A stretch of DNA of 39,668 nucleotides, from positions 1 to 39,668 of the IMG/VR virus record IMGVR_UViG_3300010413_000081, one strand, 5' to 3'. Source of the stretch: a virus. Both the position numbers and the translations under genes were made by a program. How positions within the stretch are numbered: the first letter of the stretch is position 1; each line of letters begins with the position of its first letter. This document shows positions 15,038-32,154 of the stretch, piece by piece. The notes below the pieces were generated by a model that worked only from the letters and a program-made list of their open reading frames with translations, made no database searches and was not told where the DNA came from.

Positions 15038-15367
15038 TTACTTGGTAGCCGGCGGGGCCGGTACTTTGCCTGCGGCCTTCGCTTCCGCCTCGGCGATGAT
15101 CGCGGCGGCCCGTTCCTCGGCCTCCTTAACCTTCGCGTCGGCGTCGGCGATGGCTTTAGCCGCCTTCGCTTCGGCGGCCTTAACCTTTTCGTCGGCTTCG
15201 TTGGTAACTACCGCCTTGAGGTCTTCGGCCATCCCCTGATCCTGCAGCTTCTTACCGATTTCCGGGCCTACCAGAGTCCCGTAAGGGACCAACTGGAGAA
15301 CGCCGTCCTTACCGGTAAGGTAGAGGCTCTTATGGGTAACGCGGTGGGTGTGTTTCTCGTCCATCAT
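15038..15367 (-). CDS. Small protein with C-terminal coiled coil, capsid-adjacent
   Basis: A 109-residue protein next to the major capsid gene. Residues 1-50 (HRVTHKSLYLTGKDGVLQLV) may form a small beta domain. Residues about 52-100 are an Ala/Lys/Glu repeat (KVKAAEAKAAKAIADADAKV) predicted as a long charged helix or coiled coil. It ends Pro/Ala-rich. No family is recognised. A minor head component or assembly factor is plausible from position. Two adjacent ATG codons are possible starts. Confidence 0.65.
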   Translation of the reverse strand: MMDEKHTHRVTHKSLYLTGKDGVLQLVPYGTLVGPEIGKKLQDQGMAEDLKAVVTNEADEKVKAAEAKAAKAIADADAKVKEAEERAAAIIAEAEAKAAGKVPAPPATK

Positions 15368-15376
15368 AACCCCCTA

Positions 15377-16444
15377 TTAAACGATTACTTTGGCGAAGAG
15401 CGCACACTTACGCGAGGCGTAGTCGGTACGGACTTCGAAGCCGATCGCGCCCCAAACAGCAAAGTCGTAATTGCTGTTATAGACCGGGCGCGGCATCGGA
15501 ACGGTATTGATCGCCATGCCGGTGATCGGACGAACGCTCATACCGTCCAGCGGGAACGCCATAAACTCGTTACCGGACAGCTTGGAAGACGCCTTAATCG
15601 CCGCTACGCCCATGAGCTGAGCCAGGCGGTTAAGGATCTTCTCGCTACTGTACGACTCGGAGCTATTGCGCTCGAAGTTGGACGCAATCTCGCGGCTCAC
15701 GTAGTAAACCGCGTCTTTCTGGCAGTTATTGGTGATCCAGAGAACATTACGGACAACCTTAAACGCGGCCTCGATTTCGGGGTAGGTCTTGGTGGTGTCG
15801 GTAAAGTCGAAGTTAACGCCAGCGGCGCCGAGATTGACTTGGGCGACGCGGGAATCGTTACGCATACCCGCCCAACTCAAGCCGTCGACGACGATAAGGT
15901 TACCGTCCGCGTCCTTGTGGCCATCGAGGAAGTTATCGGCCAGGCGAACGCGCAGGGTAGCCACGCTCTCGCGCTGGTCGTCGATGAGGGCGTCGAAGCC
16001 TTCAGACGATTGGGCGTTCCATTCGCGCCAGTTACGGCCGAACCCGGTATCGTGGACCGGAACGATGGTACCGTCGTAGTTGTATTCCACTTGGTCCAGC
16101 TTTACGCCGATCTGGCCGCTCATAGAGGTCTGAGCGTGGCCAGCGTCGGAAGCGCGGCGGAACTTGTGCACCAACTTGCCGATATTCACCGGACGGGACA
16201 GAGGCAACAGGTCGTTGAGGAAGGTATCGCCGTCGTCGGAGCGGAAACGCTCGACGGTAACGTTATCGAATTCCTGGTAGACCTCCTGCGGGATGATGCC
16301 GGCGTTAACCTTGAAACCGGCCGCCAGCAATGCGGGGGCGTGGCGCTCCTCGTTCGCCGCATAGGCGAGACGAGCCGCGACAACGCTATCCCACTGCTCG
16401 ACGCCGGCCCGGCTATTACCGATCAATTTCTTTTGAAACAGCAT
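15377..16444 (-). CDS. Major capsid protein
   Basis: A 355-residue protein in the major-capsid slot, after the protease/scaffold and decoration genes. FLNDLLPLSRPVNIGKLVHK near the N-terminus resembles an HK97-fold N-arm and E-loop region. The C-terminal part (GIAINTVPMPRPVYNSNYDF has the near form GMAINTVPMPR here) leads into VWGAIGFEVRTDYASRKCAL, a beta-strand end typical of major capsid proteins. I cannot assign a Pfam family with certainty. Gene order makes the call firm. Confidence 0.85.
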   Translation of the reverse strand: MLFQKKLIGNSRAGVEQWDSVVAARLAYAANEERHAPALLAAGFKVNAGIIPQEVYQEFDNVTVERFRSDDGDTFLNDLLPLSRPVNIGKLVHKFRRASDAGHAQTSMSGQIGVKLDQVEYNYDGTIVPVHDTGFGRNWREWNAQSSEGFDALIDDQRESVATLRVRLADNFLDGHKDADGNLIVVDGLSWAGMRNDSRVAQVNLGAAGVNFDFTDTTKTYPEIEAAFKVVRNVLWITNNCQKDAVYYVSREIASNFERNSSESYSSEKILNRLAQLMGVAAIKASSKLSGNEFMAFPLDGMSVRPITGMAINTVPMPRPVYNSNYDFAVWGAIGFEVRTDYASRKCALFAKVIV

Positions 16445-16456
16445 GATCAGGGCTCC

Positions 16457-16894
16457 TTATTTGACGAGAACGCGAACGAGCTGCGTCGCGGTGGTGGTTA
16501 CAACCTCGTCCGAATAGCAAACCGCGTTCGCCTCGGTGCCGATGGCCAGGGGGCCGCCTGCAACCGGAACAGTGAGCGGAGTGCCGCGGACGAGAGCCTG
16601 CGCGGTAACGACGAGAACGTTAACGAACTCGCCGGAACGGGGCTTGAGGGCGACCATATTTTCGTTAATGGTCCAAGCATCGTCTACCGACTTGCTGCGC
16701 ATTTGGTCCTTATCGGCGACGAGGAGGAGGTTATCCCCCTGGGCGGCCGCCTCGAGACCGAGCGAAGTAGCCGACAGGGCGAGCGGAGTACCGGGCAAAT
16801 GCGCGGCGACTGCGACACCTTCGACGTTCAGCGGTTTTGCGTTGGAGCCGTCCGCAGGGCCGACCCAGATAACGCGTTTTCCTTTGGTGCTCAT
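16457..16894 (-). CDS. Capsid decoration-like protein
   Basis: A 145-residue protein rich in Val/Ala/Gly. It lies between scaffold and major capsid genes, the usual place for a decoration (lambda gpD-like) or head-stabilising protein. KGKRVIWVGPADGSNAKPLN at the start, AAAQGDNLLLVADKDQM in the middle and TATQLVRVLVK at the end suggest an all-beta fold. There is no sequence motif that proves it; the call is positional. Confidence 0.55.
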   Translation of the reverse strand: MSTKGKRVIWVGPADGSNAKPLNVEGVAVAAHLPGTPLALSATSLGLEAAAQGDNLLLVADKDQMRSKSVDDAWTINENMVALKPRSGEFVNVLVVTAQALVRGTPLTVPVAGGPLAIGTEANAVCYSDEVVTTTATQLVRVLVK

Positions 16895-16907
16895 TGGTCA
16901 GCCCTCC

Positions 16908-17330
16908 TTATTCCGGCATGTCGACGGGTACGCCGCTGGACTTACCACCCATATTGGTAGTCAGCGGGACGCCGTGAGCGATACCGACATTAGCGGCCAT
17001 CGTGCGCAGCTTCTCCAGGGGGAGCAACTTCGCCGAGTCCTCGTCGAGACCGGGGAAACGGCCGCTATTCGCCACGGTGGCGGCGAGGGCGTTGTGTTCC
17101 TCGGTAGTCTTCTGGTTAATCGAATTCTCGATCCCATCCAGGCGAGCGACAAGCGGCTGCAGGGCACTAGCCACGGCGGCGGAAATATCCGCGCCCTGGG
17201 CGTTACCGTGGCCGTTACCGCCGCCCGAATTGGTCGAGAGCTTGGAGAATTCCGCCAAGAGCTGCGCGTCGTCCAGACCTTCAGTCGGAACGCCGGCGGC
17301 TTTCAGCGCATTAAGGATCGTCTCCTTCAT
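16908..17330 (-). CDS. Nested scaffold protein (internal in-frame start)
   Basis: An in-frame ATG at 17330 (residue 406 of the protease gene) is preceded by GAGGTG 8 bases upstream, as good as any RBS in the window. It would give a 140-residue protein beginning MKETILNALKAAGVPTEGLD, with a Gly-rich linker and a helical end. This mirrors lambda C/Nu3, where the scaffold is translated from inside the protease gene. The RBS and frame are seen; independent translation is inferred. Confidence 0.7.
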   Translation of the reverse strand: MKETILNALKAAGVPTEGLDDAQLLAEFSKLSTNSGGGNGHGNAQGADISAAVASALQPLVARLDGIENSINQKTTEEHNALAATVANSGRFPGLDEDSAKLLPLEKLRTMAANVGIAHGVPLTTNMGGKSSGVPVDMPE

Positions 17331-24926: not shown

Positions 24927-25205
24927 TTACTTACCCTCCGCTATGTCTAGGATGATTTGCACGAGCCCCCTAATATGCGACTCCGCAGCTACCGGGGCGG
25001 TTTTAACGCTCCCGCTCTCTACGAATTGCTTAGCGTACCGCGCGGCCTCGATGAACGCCGGAGAGACGACGAACGGCTCGATATTGTCGACGCTGAACGC
25101 CCGTAACGCCCCGTTTTGTAATTTCACGGTTCCGGTGTCCGCGTTAGCGTCTACGAGCTGCCCTCGGATCACTACCGGCTTGCATATATCGTTATGGGTA
25201 ATCAC
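24927..25205 (-). CDS. Hypothetical protein, GTG start
   Basis: A 92-residue protein. GTG at 25205 overlaps the pentapeptide stop (GTGA). The N-terminal half is beta-rich ([20 protein letters not shown], then [20 protein letters not shown]), like a small barrel. The rest is helical ([30 protein letters not shown]). No known family is recognised. It is coupled with the pentapeptide gene and may act with it. Confidence 0.6.
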
Positions 25206-25786
25206 AGCATTTCCTCCGCGTCCGCGAATACAAATACCGCTTGTTTATACTTCGCCCACCAGGCGACAGCCCCGACGTCCATAGCGCGTATAGCTATCTC
25301 GTCGAATTCGGCCCATTCGTGCAGTCTGTGCCCTTGGCATCCTATCTGCAGCCAATCGTCGCAAACCACCACGTGGTAATGATCGAATTGCGCCGACCTA
25401 ATTATTTTTCCGTCCCCAATCGCCCCGTGCAGATCCGCCCCGTCCAGATTCGCCCCGCGCAGATCCGCCCAGCGCAGATCCGCCCAGCGCAGATTCGCCC
25501 CGTGCAGATTCGCCCCGTGCAGATCCGCCCCGTGCAGATTCGCCCCGTGCAGATTCGCCCCGTGCAGATTCGCCCCGCGCAGATCCGCCAAGCGCAGATC
25601 CGCCCAGCGCAGATTCGCCCCGTGCAGATTCGCCCCGTGCAGATTCGCCTCGCGCAGATTCGCCTCGCGCAGATCCGCCTCGCGCAGATCCGCCCCGCGC
25701 AGATCCGCCCCGCGCAGATCCGCCCCGTGCAGATTATCCGCCACGACTGAGTGAATAACCGCGCCGCTAAGGCTAATTATATCCAT
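25202..25786 (-). CDS. Pentapeptide-repeat protein with C-terminal domain
   Basis: A 194-residue protein. Residues 18-127 are 22 uninterrupted pentapeptides of the type A(D/N)LxG, e.g. [18 protein letters not shown], predicted to fold as a right-handed quadrilateral beta-helix. Residues 128-194 ([20 protein letters not shown], then [20 protein letters not shown]) form a separate domain. Known relatives (MfpA, Qnr) mimic DNA and bind gyrase, but that role is not shown here. GGAG lies 8 bases before the ATG. It is the first gene of a leftward unit with its own promoter. Confidence 0.85.
25406..25735 (-). repeat. 22 tandem 15-bp repeats coding pentapeptides
   Basis: The 330-base stretch is built from 22 consecutive 15-base units such as CGCAGATCCGCCC or TGCAGATTCGCCC on the plus strand. 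Many units are nearly identical at the DNA level, so copy number can change by slippage or recombination without breaking the frame. Confidence 0.85.
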
Positions 25787-29189: not shown

Positions 29190-29317
29190 ATATGGCCTAT
29201 TAATTGATACCCTATAGGTGCCCTAGTCTCTGCGCGCATAGCCGCGTAACAGTGGTCCCCACTTATCGCGCACAATAGCCGAGGCCCATCGTAGAAATAA
29301 ATTTTCCAAATGCTCAT
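29186..29317 (-). CDS. 43-residue hypothetical protein with candidate own promoter
   Basis: The ATG at 29317 overlaps the methyltransferase stop (ATGA), and the end overlaps the HTH gene start as ATGA. The product starts MSIWKIYFYDGPRLLCAISG and ends RAPIGYQLIGHI. No family is recognised; the beta-rich composition suggests a small barrel. A sigma-70-like promoter lies so close upstream that transcription would begin at the A of this ATG, and no Shine-Dalgarno is seen. Confidence 0.55.
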   Translation of the reverse strand: MSIWKIYFYDGPRLLCAISGDHCYAAMRAETRAPIGYQLIGHI

Positions 29318-30804
29318 TTATTTACCTTATCCGATAATGTGCGGACGGTCAAGGCGTCTAGTATTCTGGCGTTTGCGATATCGACCATCCGGCCCCCTTG
29401 GTCATCTGGGTCCCACTGAAAACCGAGGAAATTAAACCCCTCTAGCACCGCCCCGCGCCCCGTACTGCCTGAGCCGGTGAATGGGTCTAGGATGAGGCCG
29501 CCCGGCGGAGTAACTAGACGGCATAGGTAGCGCATTAACTCGGTAGGTTTAACGGTGGGGTGCGGGTTGCGATTGCCAACGGTGCGGCCCGTCCCAGCGC
29601 GTGGGTTGTTAAGCCCCGCTGACCCCTCGTCACGACCCCCGGTAGCATCCCCGGCCGATAGAATATCGAACGCCTCGAGCCCGGCGTTACGGTCCGCCTT
29701 GGACGCTTTCGCGCAATAGAAGTATCGCGCCCATTCTTCGCCGTCGAGCGCCCCGTCGTGTAGCACGTTAGCGGGCCAGCGACCTGAGTCGTCCGGGTTG
29801 TAAGCGACTCGTTCCCGGTGACCGCCTGTTACGCCGTTTCCTGCGAACGAGGGTTCGTCCCCGTTAACGCTGTATTCGGTGCGGTCGCCGTCGACCCGCG
29901 GTATCCTACAACCGCCGATATTGATCGCTCCCGTCCCGTACTGCAGCACATTGTCCGCCACGGTTCCGACAAGCGGCTTGCGGGCGATAATGACCGGCTC
30001 GTATGCGGGCTTAAGCGCGGTTCCCCATCCGTCCCACTGTTTCGCGGCGTCGGTGTGGGGGGCGGTGTAGTAATATTCCTCTTCCGCAAAGTCGCCATAA
30101 ACCCCAGCGCTTTTACCCTTCGGCGTTCCTGCCGCCACCACATTCCGCCGTTTCATATTCTCCAACTCTACCGTTCGCCATTGCATCAGCTCCATGATCT
30201 CGGGCGGGGGTGTCGGTACTAGATGGGCGAAGCTCGCATACATATCGAGCGTGGCTATAGCTGGTTGTTCCTTATCGGTCAAATAATGGTTGCCCATGTT
30301 TGATTTAGTGGCTTCGTTGATCTGTCGTGCTGTGATCCCAGTAGATCGCAGCCATGCGGTGAACTTTAACGCCCGTTCTCGACTTGCGCCTATGCCGTGC
30401 GTCTTCTCTACTGCCTTCGACACGTCCAGCGACTTAGGGAAGCCAGACCCGTATAGCCACATGGCCGTATCTCGGATCTCGAATCCCGCTAACCGTAGCG
30501 CCATCGACATCAGGTCTTGAGTCCGCGACCCGGCGAAAACAAGCGCATGGCCGCCAGGCTTCAGCACTCTGTACACCTCGCGCCATGTGGCCGGACCGGG
30601 GACGAAACTGTCCCACGTTTTGCCCATGAAACCGCGGCCCGTTTGTTTGTAATCGTCGCCGTTTAACCAATGGCGCAATACCTCGGCGGTGTCCGGCTCT
30701 TTACTCAGCCCATAAGGCGGGTCAGTAACTACCGCGTCGATAACGTTATCCTCGCGCAAGTGTTCAGCAATACCCGCGCGACATTCTTTGTTAATTACGA
30801 ACAT
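29314..30804 (-). CDS. DNA methyltransferase, DPPY type (adenine-N6 or cytosine-N4)
   Basis: A 496-residue methyltransferase. DAVVTDPPYGLS (DPPY at about residues 28-31) comes before the SAM-binding block LDPFTGSGSTGRGAVLEGFN (about 437-456), the class beta order. RVLKPGGHALVFAGSR follows DPPY. The long middle (about 110-410) carries the target-recognition region, with PAYEPVIIARKPLVGTVADN typical of this group. I take the ATG at 30804 with GGGG 9 bases upstream rather than the TTG before it. It overlaps the cytosine methyltransferase by 14 bases. Confidence 0.9.
   Translation of the reverse strand: MFVINKECRAGIAEHLREDNVIDAVVTDPPYGLSKEPDTAEVLRHWLNGDDYKQTGRGFMGKTWDSFVPGPATWREVYRVLKPGGHALVFAGSRTQDLMSMALRLAGFEIRDTAMWLYGSGFPKSLDVSKAVEKTHGIGASRERALKFTAWLRSTGITARQINEATKSNMGNHYLTDKEQPAIATLDMYASFAHLVPTPPPEIMELMQWRTVELENMKRRNVVAAGTPKGKSAGVYGDFAEEEYYYTAPHTDAAKQWDGWGTALKPAYEPVIIARKPLVGTVADNVLQYGTGAINIGGCRIPRVDGDRTEYSVNGDEPSFAGNGVTGGHRERVAYNPDDSGRWPANVLHDGALDGEEWARYFYCAKASKADRNAGLEAFDILSAGDATGGRDEGSAGLNNPRAGTGRTVGNRNPHPTVKPTELMRYLCRLVTPPGGLILDPFTGSGSTGRGAVLEGFNFLGFQWDPDDQGGRMVDIANARILDALTVRTLSDKVNK
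29324..29352 (-). promoter_or_regulatory. Internal leftward promoter with operator-like motif
   Basis: TTGACC (29347-29352), a 17-base spacer and TAAGGT (29324-29329) on the minus strand. It includes ACATTATCGGATAA (29327-29340), identical over 14 bases to the pentapeptide promoter. It sits inside the 3' end of the methyltransferase gene and would make a second transcript for the HTH and primase genes. Confidence 0.55.
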
Positions 30805-31966
30805 CAAGATACGCCCCTATAAATTGCGCCGTGACTTCGGCATTAATTGCATTGCCGTAACCGCGCAATCGTCCCACTCGGGCGGGAGCCCCATTAGCCA
30901 GCGGGAATGTTCCGGGTTCAACTGGCCGCCACTTTCCATCCCTGCAGTAGAGCCAATCAGCATCTTGCCAGAGGCCATTAGTCGGGCCGGCTGGTCGTGG
31001 CTCAGGTAAAACGGTGCCCAGTCCTTCAATTCCCCCCGGTAACTCCCCATCGAGTTCGGATCTCGGTTCCCGTCTTTCTTCAACCGCATCATTCTCGGTT
31101 TGCCATTGTTCGTCCCGTCGAAAGTCAGAGGTGTCGGCCATCCCGCCAGAGTCGCAACGTGTGGAAGAGCTACAGACACTTTGCGACCGTCCGGCGTCTT
31201 CCCCGTCGCGCTCAGTCCCTCGAAGCTCTGCGAGCCTTGACTGTTTCCTACAGTCGGCGTCGGCCATCCCGCCAGGCCCACCGCACCCGGCAATCGGTCC
31301 ACCCCCTGCCCCGGCCCACCCTTCGGCCCGTCCTGCTGGCATGGCGTCGGCCATCCCGCCAAATTCGCCTGTCTTGGTAGCTGATCGAACCGCTCCTTCC
31401 CTGTGTCCTTGCGTGGTGTGATATCCGCCCCGCTGTCCTTCCAGTCCCTCGCCGATGGGGTGACCCACGAAGAACAGTCGTTGCCGGATGTGCGGCGCAC
31501 CGACGCCCGCAGCGCAGAGATCAGTCGCCCCGAAGGCGTAGCCCGCTCCTTCCATGTCAGTTTGTACAAGGTCGAGCCAAGCGAGGCCGTCTTTGCTCGC
31601 AACCTGCTCGCCAAATATTGGGACAGCTCTTGGCTTTGCCGTAGTGATGAGGTGGAACCAGGCTGGCCATAGATGCCGCTCGTCAGTAAACCCGCCGCCT
31701 TTGCCTGCGCTGCTGAAAGGTTGGCAGGGGCAAGAGCCTGTCCAAACTGGTCTATCGTCAGCCCACCCAGCTCGGCGCAAGGCATAGGACCACACGCCGA
31801 TCCCGGCGAAAAAATGGCACTGTGTAAAACCGGCCAAGTCCGAAGGTAACACGTTTTCAATTGATCGTTCATCGACTACCCCAGGGGCGATTAACCCCGC
31901 TTTGATTAACTCACGCAGCCAGGCGGCGGCGTTTGGATCGAACTCGTTATAATACGCCCAGCCCAT
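30791..31966 (-). CDS. DNA cytosine-C5 methyltransferase
   Basis: A 391-residue enzyme transferring methyl from SAM to C5 of cytosine. Motif I is [18 protein letters not shown] (about 51-68), motif [13 protein letters not shown] with catalytic Cys 81, the ENV-equivalent FGEQV (118-122), motif [12 protein letters not shown] (about 161-168) and motif [16 protein letters not shown] near the end. Residues about 185-340 are a low-complexity target region with repeated GGMADA or GGMADT. I use ATG 31966 (GGGG 5 bases upstream), not a TTG at 31984. Most of the gene also encodes another frame. Confidence 0.9.
30817..31872 (-). CDS. Overlapping +1-frame ORF inside the cytosine methyltransferase gene
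   Basis: A 351-codon frame shifted +1 relative to the methyltransferase, with no stop. It starts at an ATG preceded by CCTGGGGTAG, nearly the same as the leader of the methyltransferase start. It reads like a protein: [20 protein letters not shown], three LAGWPTP motifs (DNA repeat GTCGGCCATCCCGCCA on the plus strand), and [20 protein letters not shown] near the end. Similar wording occurs in database proteins named phage DNA methylase. It may be a second protein or a domain reached by frameshifting. Translation is not proven. Confidence 0.55.
31133..31361 (-). repeat. Three dispersed copies of a 16-17-base motif in the methyltransferase target region
   Basis: GTCGGCCATCCCGCCA (plus-strand reading) occurs at 31133-31148, 31259-31274 and 31346-31361, with a following G in the first two. 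It codes GGMADA/T in the methyltransferase frame and LAGWPT in the overlapping frame. It is a shared-coding repeat rather than a mobile element. Confidence 0.75.
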
Positions 31967-31968
31967 AG

Positions 31969-32154
31969 CTACCCCAGGTACCAAGCAAGATACGAGAACA
32001 AGAGCCCACCCGGATATACCGCATAGCTCGGCGTTTCCCGGATTGATTCACCCATCGCCGCGCGGACCTCTTGAAGTGTCGAGAACCCAGAGTCCGCCGA
32101 ATGCGCTAGACATTCCTTAGTATCCGGGTCGAATGGTGTTAAATAGATAGTCAT
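31969..32154 (-). CDS. Hypothetical protein between nuclease cluster and methyltransferase
   Basis: A 61-residue protein starting MTIYLTPFDPDTKECLAHSA and ending VYPGGLLFSYLAWYLG. AAGGG lies 7 bases before the ATG. Its stop is three bases before the methyltransferase ATG, so the two are probably coupled. No domain is recognised. The C-terminal 15 residues are hydrophobic but too short and broken for a certain membrane span. Confidence 0.6.
   Translation of the reverse strand: MTIYLTPFDPDTKECLAHSADSGFSTLQEVRAAMGESIRETPSYAVYPGGLLFSYLAWYLG

Follow-up and report, generated by a model that had tools for sequence, protein, structure and literature searches.

In the 39.7 kb virus record analysed here (the window), which has contractile-tailed phage genes, a C5-cytosine DNA methyltransferase gene carries two overlapping proteins on the same strand. 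Based on sequence comparisons, we consider it very likely (probability about 0.85) that the products of frame 1 and frame 2 are the alpha and beta chains of one heterodimeric methyltransferase of the M.EcoHK31I type. Motifs I-VIII and X are found on frame 1 only, and motif IX is found on frame 2 only. The alpha chain (30791..31984, minus strand, as are all features of the two chains given below) was recognized as an ORF matching PF00145 at residues 82-175 (E=1.3e-10) and phrog_363 (E=4e-81). It is 397 aa long when read from a TTG and 391 aa long when the ATG at 31966 is used, and the latter is probably the start. An earlier note on this DNA had pointed to a 351-codon frame inside the gene, and such a frame was found exactly at 30817..31872, in the +1 frame relative to alpha. 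The ORF begins with an ATG, and its product, beta (351 aa), matched phrog_31772 (E=2e-38) and phrog_1008 (E=1e-34), both labelled DNA methyltransferase; all of the 114 beta homologues matched both families as well. No family was assigned to beta by Pfam, NCBIfam or PADLOC naming. Note that PHROG 363 for alpha and 31772/1008 for beta are direct sequence family matches to the two frames, and that these entries carry the label 'DNA methyltransferase' only and do not mention their relation as two frames of one locus.

We examined how far the open length of frame 2 exceeds what the methyltransferase sequence itself would give. The beta frame has 352 open codons, while in 200 synonymous-codon shuffles of the methyltransferase the mean was 148 and no shuffle was as long, in agreement with the earlier view that the frame is not ordinary noise. 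Relatives were then fetched by alpha alone, avoiding ascertainment by frame 2, and a beta homologue in the +1 frame was present in all 69 non-redundant loci so obtained. The longest open frame-2 stretch in these loci was 317 codons on average versus 165 after synonymous shuffling, and 61/69 loci were individually significant (p<0.05) against the shuffle null, versus 0/69 for the +2 frame. In the beta-ascertained set, the corresponding means were 334 and 167 codons. The +2 and antisense frames served as controls for the shuffles, which ruled out a chance ORF or an effect of composition.

The overlap is widespread. Searches of phage records by tblastn gave 213 records with beta as the query and 383 with alpha, and at least 597 relatives were found when viral contigs were scanned with beta. 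Profile HMMs were applied to 315 loci from viral contigs, GTDB genomes and annotated phages; both frames were found on the same strand with an offset of always +1 in 313 of them, alpha only was found in 2, and beta without alpha in none. The outcome that would have refuted the reading of the earlier note, stops breaking frame 2 in most close homologues, was not seen: frame 2 is intact in essentially all relatives. The range comprises phages and prophages of gamma-, alpha- and betaproteobacteria, Bacillota (including phages of Paenibacillus and Lacticaseibacillus) and cyanobacteria, as well as single contigs labelled planctomycete, acidobacterial and Kiritimatiellae. An ATG is located upstream of the conserved beta region in 120 of 129 homologues. 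The laboratory phages N15 (gene 58) and epsilon15 belong to this family. In N15 (1688-2413 of the locus), an upstream stop removes approximately the first 60 profile residues from the beta frame, which suggests that the beta N-terminus is dispensable.

Selection on frame 2 was evaluated in two ways. Using a codon alignment of 129 sequences, we calculated pairwise identity at four-fold-degenerate third positions of alpha, for which the random expectation is 0.26. The identity was 0.33 before the overlap (codons 9-37), 0.49, 0.70, 0.58 and 0.77 within it, and 0.31 past the beta stop. Strong third-position constraint starts approximately 43 codons past the beta ATG; there is little extra constraint in the overlap codons before that point, so that the exact beta start is uncertain. 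In overlap-aware substitution classes (111 close pairs, bootstrapped by pair), frame-2 dSN/dSS was 0.32 (0.27-0.37) in the catalytic region, 0.57 (0.47-0.73) in the variable region and 0.31 (0.25-0.41) in the C-terminal block, where the intervals are optimistic because the pairs share branches and are not phylogenetically independent. The values in the non-overlapped, single-coded ends were 1.27 and 1.42, and the +2 frame did not show the pattern of frame 2 in the same 111 pairs. For frame 1, constraint was strong in two of the regions (0.11 in the catalytic region, 0.23 in the C-terminal block), and the variable region was close to neutrality (dNN/dSN 0.97). Both the third-position profiles and the dSN/dSS values indicate constraint on frame 2 beyond what the methyltransferase frame predicts. 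Frame 2 is a real protein under purifying selection, and the original impression that two frames are coding over 1 kb of the methyltransferase gene holds, given the conservation and purifying selection in both. Plain identity in frame 2 did not discriminate, as the +2 frame also scored high; the third-position profiles and overlap-aware rates were used in its place for this reason.

Alpha has the features of C5-methyltransferases, namely a Rossmann-type large domain bearing motifs I, IV (PCQ), VI, VIII and X. Motif I (FFAGIG, residues 58-63; 31796..31813) was identified from the sequence and is conserved in the alignment. Motif IV (SCPCQPFS, residues 84-91; 31712..31735), which contains the catalytic Cys, is supported by 124/129 homologues and by the HhaI alignment, and motif VIII (residues 162-173; 31466..31501) by the sequence together with the A3 and HhaI alignments. 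Motif X (residues 370-380; 30845..30877) was assigned from GNA[IVL] and from a C-terminal helix with pLDDT above 90; GNA[IVL] is in frame 1 in 119/129 homologues and in frame 2 in 0/129. The canonical motif IX pattern was found in frame 1 of none of the 129 homologues. In the AF2 model of alpha, residues 10-180 form a confident core and residues 382-396 a confident motif X helix, and its alignment with M.HhaI spans 164-194 of 327 residues, both ends included, with Z of approximately 14. As modelled, alpha is an M.HhaI-like large domain without the small domain. Between the core and motif X lies a linker (residues 181-336; 30977..31444) that is predicted to be disordered (pLDDT approximately 44 over residues 181-330) and is nearly unconstrained, as the dNN/dSN value of 0.97 given above indicates. 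The same stretch of DNA encodes the part of beta with the WPTP repeats, and it is frame 2 that is under constraint here.

Beta has a predicted recognition-type region with WxTP repeats, followed by motif IX, and has no motif X. The Trp motif described earlier as repeated three times is, in translation, LAGWPTP at beta residues 171-177 (31342..31362), 200-206 (31255..31275) and 242-248 (31129..31149). As had also been recognized, the repeats are the same DNA as GGMADA of the methyltransferase frame: the LAGWPTP DNA reads GGMADA or GGMADT in frame 1, the alpha codons overlapping residues 171-177 being GGMADA. Among beta homologues, the number of WxTP repeats varies from 0 to 5, and the conserved parts are one block, then the WxTP repeats, then the motif IX block. 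The latter (residues 316-334; 30871..30927) was located by hhalign, in which the beta profile aligned exactly to the LNAAFAEWMMGLPDGHV segment of single-chain actinophage methyltransferases (E=2e-5). In these single-chain enzymes, LNAAFAEWMMGLPDGHV stands between the variable region and motif X (GNGVCPQQA), which is the position of motif IX. Furthermore, when the actinophage IX-X segment was compared with PDB, the six best matches were DRM-type C5 methyltransferases at their own IX-X region, individually weak (E 0.2-0.7). The profile alignment and the DRM-type matches together lead to the assignment of motif IX to beta, and the resemblance of the C-terminal block to methyltransferase-associated phage proteins, suggested previously, can now be specified as an alignment to motif IX of actinophage methyltransferases. 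The alpha profile aligns to motifs IV-VIII of the same single-chain enzymes (E=1e-14). Alpha motif X adjoins the motif IX block of beta in the window, and the two have 7 bases in common. The AF2 model of beta was poor (mean pLDDT 60), with one confident helix-hairpin at residues 75-125, and Foldseek gave no significant match with this model; the small-domain assignment accordingly draws on sequence and selection. Since alpha is disordered and nearly free in the variable region where frame 2 is constrained, the target-recognition region is probably on frame 2.

From these features, we propose that alpha and beta would be made from one mRNA with separate starts, beta being translated from its own ATG within the alpha gene, as suggested by the ATG upstream of the conserved beta region in most homologues. 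In alpha, the large domain with motifs I-VIII would be the catalytic part, followed by a long linker, disordered for the most part, and then by the motif X helix. Motif IX would come from beta, most likely together with the target-recognition region, namely the small domain missing from alpha, and the two chains may thereby assemble into an active heterodimeric methyltransferase. Orphan methyltransferases of phages protect phage DNA from host restriction, and given this general knowledge, the enzyme presumably marks the phage DNA against host restriction.

Three other explanations were weighed against this heterodimer. A programmed frameshift from frame 1 to frame 2 could give one polypeptide, with or without a shift back for motif X. 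Such joining of the halves is suggested by actinophages in which the halves are in different frames as adjacent or overlapping ORFs (Mori gp6/gp5, DrYang gp77/gp78 and Nyxis gp78/gp77), and by Babsiella, whose LPTP repeats are in the methyltransferase frame. However, motif IX in frame 2 is followed by motif X in frame 1, and a complete enzyme would thus take two shifts, one shift being insufficient. Moreover, 120 of the 129 homologues have the upstream ATG, and selection acts on frame 2 throughout the overlap, even over the catalytic part (dSN/dSS 0.32), where a shift product would not use this frame. We regard a frameshift as very unlikely and prefer to view beta as a subunit that is translated separately. 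It is likewise very improbable that frame 2 encodes a separate protein (a regulator, an anti-restriction protein or a virion protein) unrelated to methyltransferase activity. Beta has neither a Pfam family nor a fold match, as might be expected for an unrelated protein, but it carries the very methyltransferase motif that is missing from the overlapping alpha, and there were no frame-2-only loci among the 315. Among the roles suggested in the earlier note for a second protein, a recognition partner or the other half of the enzyme therefore fits, a frameshifted half is less apt, and nothing that we found pointed to a virion or protective role.

The remaining explanation, extremely unlikely in our estimation, is that frame 2 is an untranslated by-product of frame-1 constraint or base composition. 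Few +1-frame stops (8.8) are indeed expected in this moderately GC-rich gene. On the other hand, shuffles keeping the protein and codon usage halve the open length, third-position conservation and dSN/dSS shift at the overlap boundaries, and the overlap is kept in phages of Paenibacillus and Lacticaseibacillus. The by-product explanation is already refuted by the selection test, unless some constraint at the nucleotide level imitates codon structure along 1 kb. Separately, the earlier note had remarked that beta has an ATG with the same leader as the methyltransferase. The two leaders are literally identical (CCTGGGGTAG at 31876-31885 and 31969-31978), but the identity looks coincidental. In the six nearest relatives, the GGGGGTAGTTGATG core of the beta leader is kept, and it also codes the conserved alpha residues P-G-x-V-D, and the alpha leader is a different sequence. 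The common leader was rejected as evidence for beta.

Lee, Kam and Shaw reportedly described in 1995 that M.EcoHK31I has its small polypeptide encoded in another frame of the same DNA; similarly, the second polypeptide here is in the +1 frame in 313/313 loci. The likeness extends to the published motif layout, by which the systems were compared: the larger subunit of M.EcoHK31I (YGGCCR) has motifs I-VIII and X, and its smaller polypeptide has motif IX only (PMC3404938). The differences are that M.EcoHK31I belongs to a restriction-modification system whereas the present gene is a phage gene, that beta is 351 aa, and that the TRD of M.EcoHK31I is predicted on the larger subunit (PMC3404938) whereas the selection data here favour beta. 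A search of E. coli genomes with N15 gene 58 gave prophage matches and no locus named EcoHK31I. M.AquI (CYCGRG) is also a C5-methyltransferase in two polypeptides split around the variable region. However, its small subunit has the distal variable region and motifs IX and X (PMC3404938), whereas motif X here is on the large chain, GNA[IVL] being absent from all 129 frame-2 proteins. In actinophages, proteins related to the two halves are either joined in one chain (Raleigh gp38, CheeseTouch gp88 and Babsiella gp54) or encoded by two ORFs that adjoin or overlap (Nyxis, Mori and DrYang), and the latter pairs are M.AquI-like in appearance. In Mycobacterium phage Babsiella (372-2219 and 910-1218 of the locus), LPTP repeats occur in the gp54 methyltransferase frame and in the gp55 +1 frame, an arrangement that would result if part of a beta-like sequence had been shifted into the main frame by an indel. 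The same overlap geometry, with both ORFs annotated, is seen in K1ind2 (ORF29/ORF28), K1H, Likha (51/52) and PhiXhv-28, whose records name both ORFs methyltransferase or 'Mte8-like' and state no mechanism.

The two-polypeptide type with motif IX on the second chain is already known; what stands out is the breadth and tight conservation of the overlap. The arrangement was known from few enzymes and is present here in hundreds of phages, and in the open-access papers searched we found neither a description of an overlap in phage C5-methyltransferases nor one of its breadth. We lean towards the view that the same-strand overlap of approximately 1 kb is old and has remained stable in a large family of phage C5-methyltransferases from phages and prophages of several bacterial phyla, in which the recognition subunit overprints a freely evolving linker, and that the single-chain, AquI-like split and overlapping forms are stages of one path. 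If so, specificity could diversify at little cost to catalysis. It is uncommon for a long overlap on one strand to show demonstrable selection on both of its proteins, and the two products in this case would be complementary parts of an enzyme. The family makes it testable where specificity sits in enzymes like M.EcoHK31I and by what route an overlapping pair arose from a single-chain methyltransferase. In practical terms, only one frame is annotated in many phages, leaving half an enzyme absent from gene lists, and codon-optimised cloning of the annotated gene would destroy the partner.

Several further observations were made. In Virus Rctr197k (939-1791 of the locus), the sole annotation is a frame-2-like ORF (1111-1791, conserved hypothetical), and the methyltransferase frame overlapping it (939-1769) is unannotated. 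In the window, an N6/N4-type DNA methyltransferase gene (29314-30807, minus strand; PF01555, E=3e-25, in two stretches with a long insert between them) lies directly downstream of alpha with a 17-base overlap, which places two unrelated methyltransferases in tandem. No endonuclease was recognized among the window ORFs viewed. A 542-codon antisense ORF at 15332-16960 (plus strand) lies opposite probable capsid genes. It was rejected as evidence of a gene, since synonymous-codon shuffling leaves it unchanged and it thus follows from codon usage, namely the absence of codons giving antisense stops. A pentapeptide-repeat protein (25202-25786, minus strand) was also seen in the ORF list.
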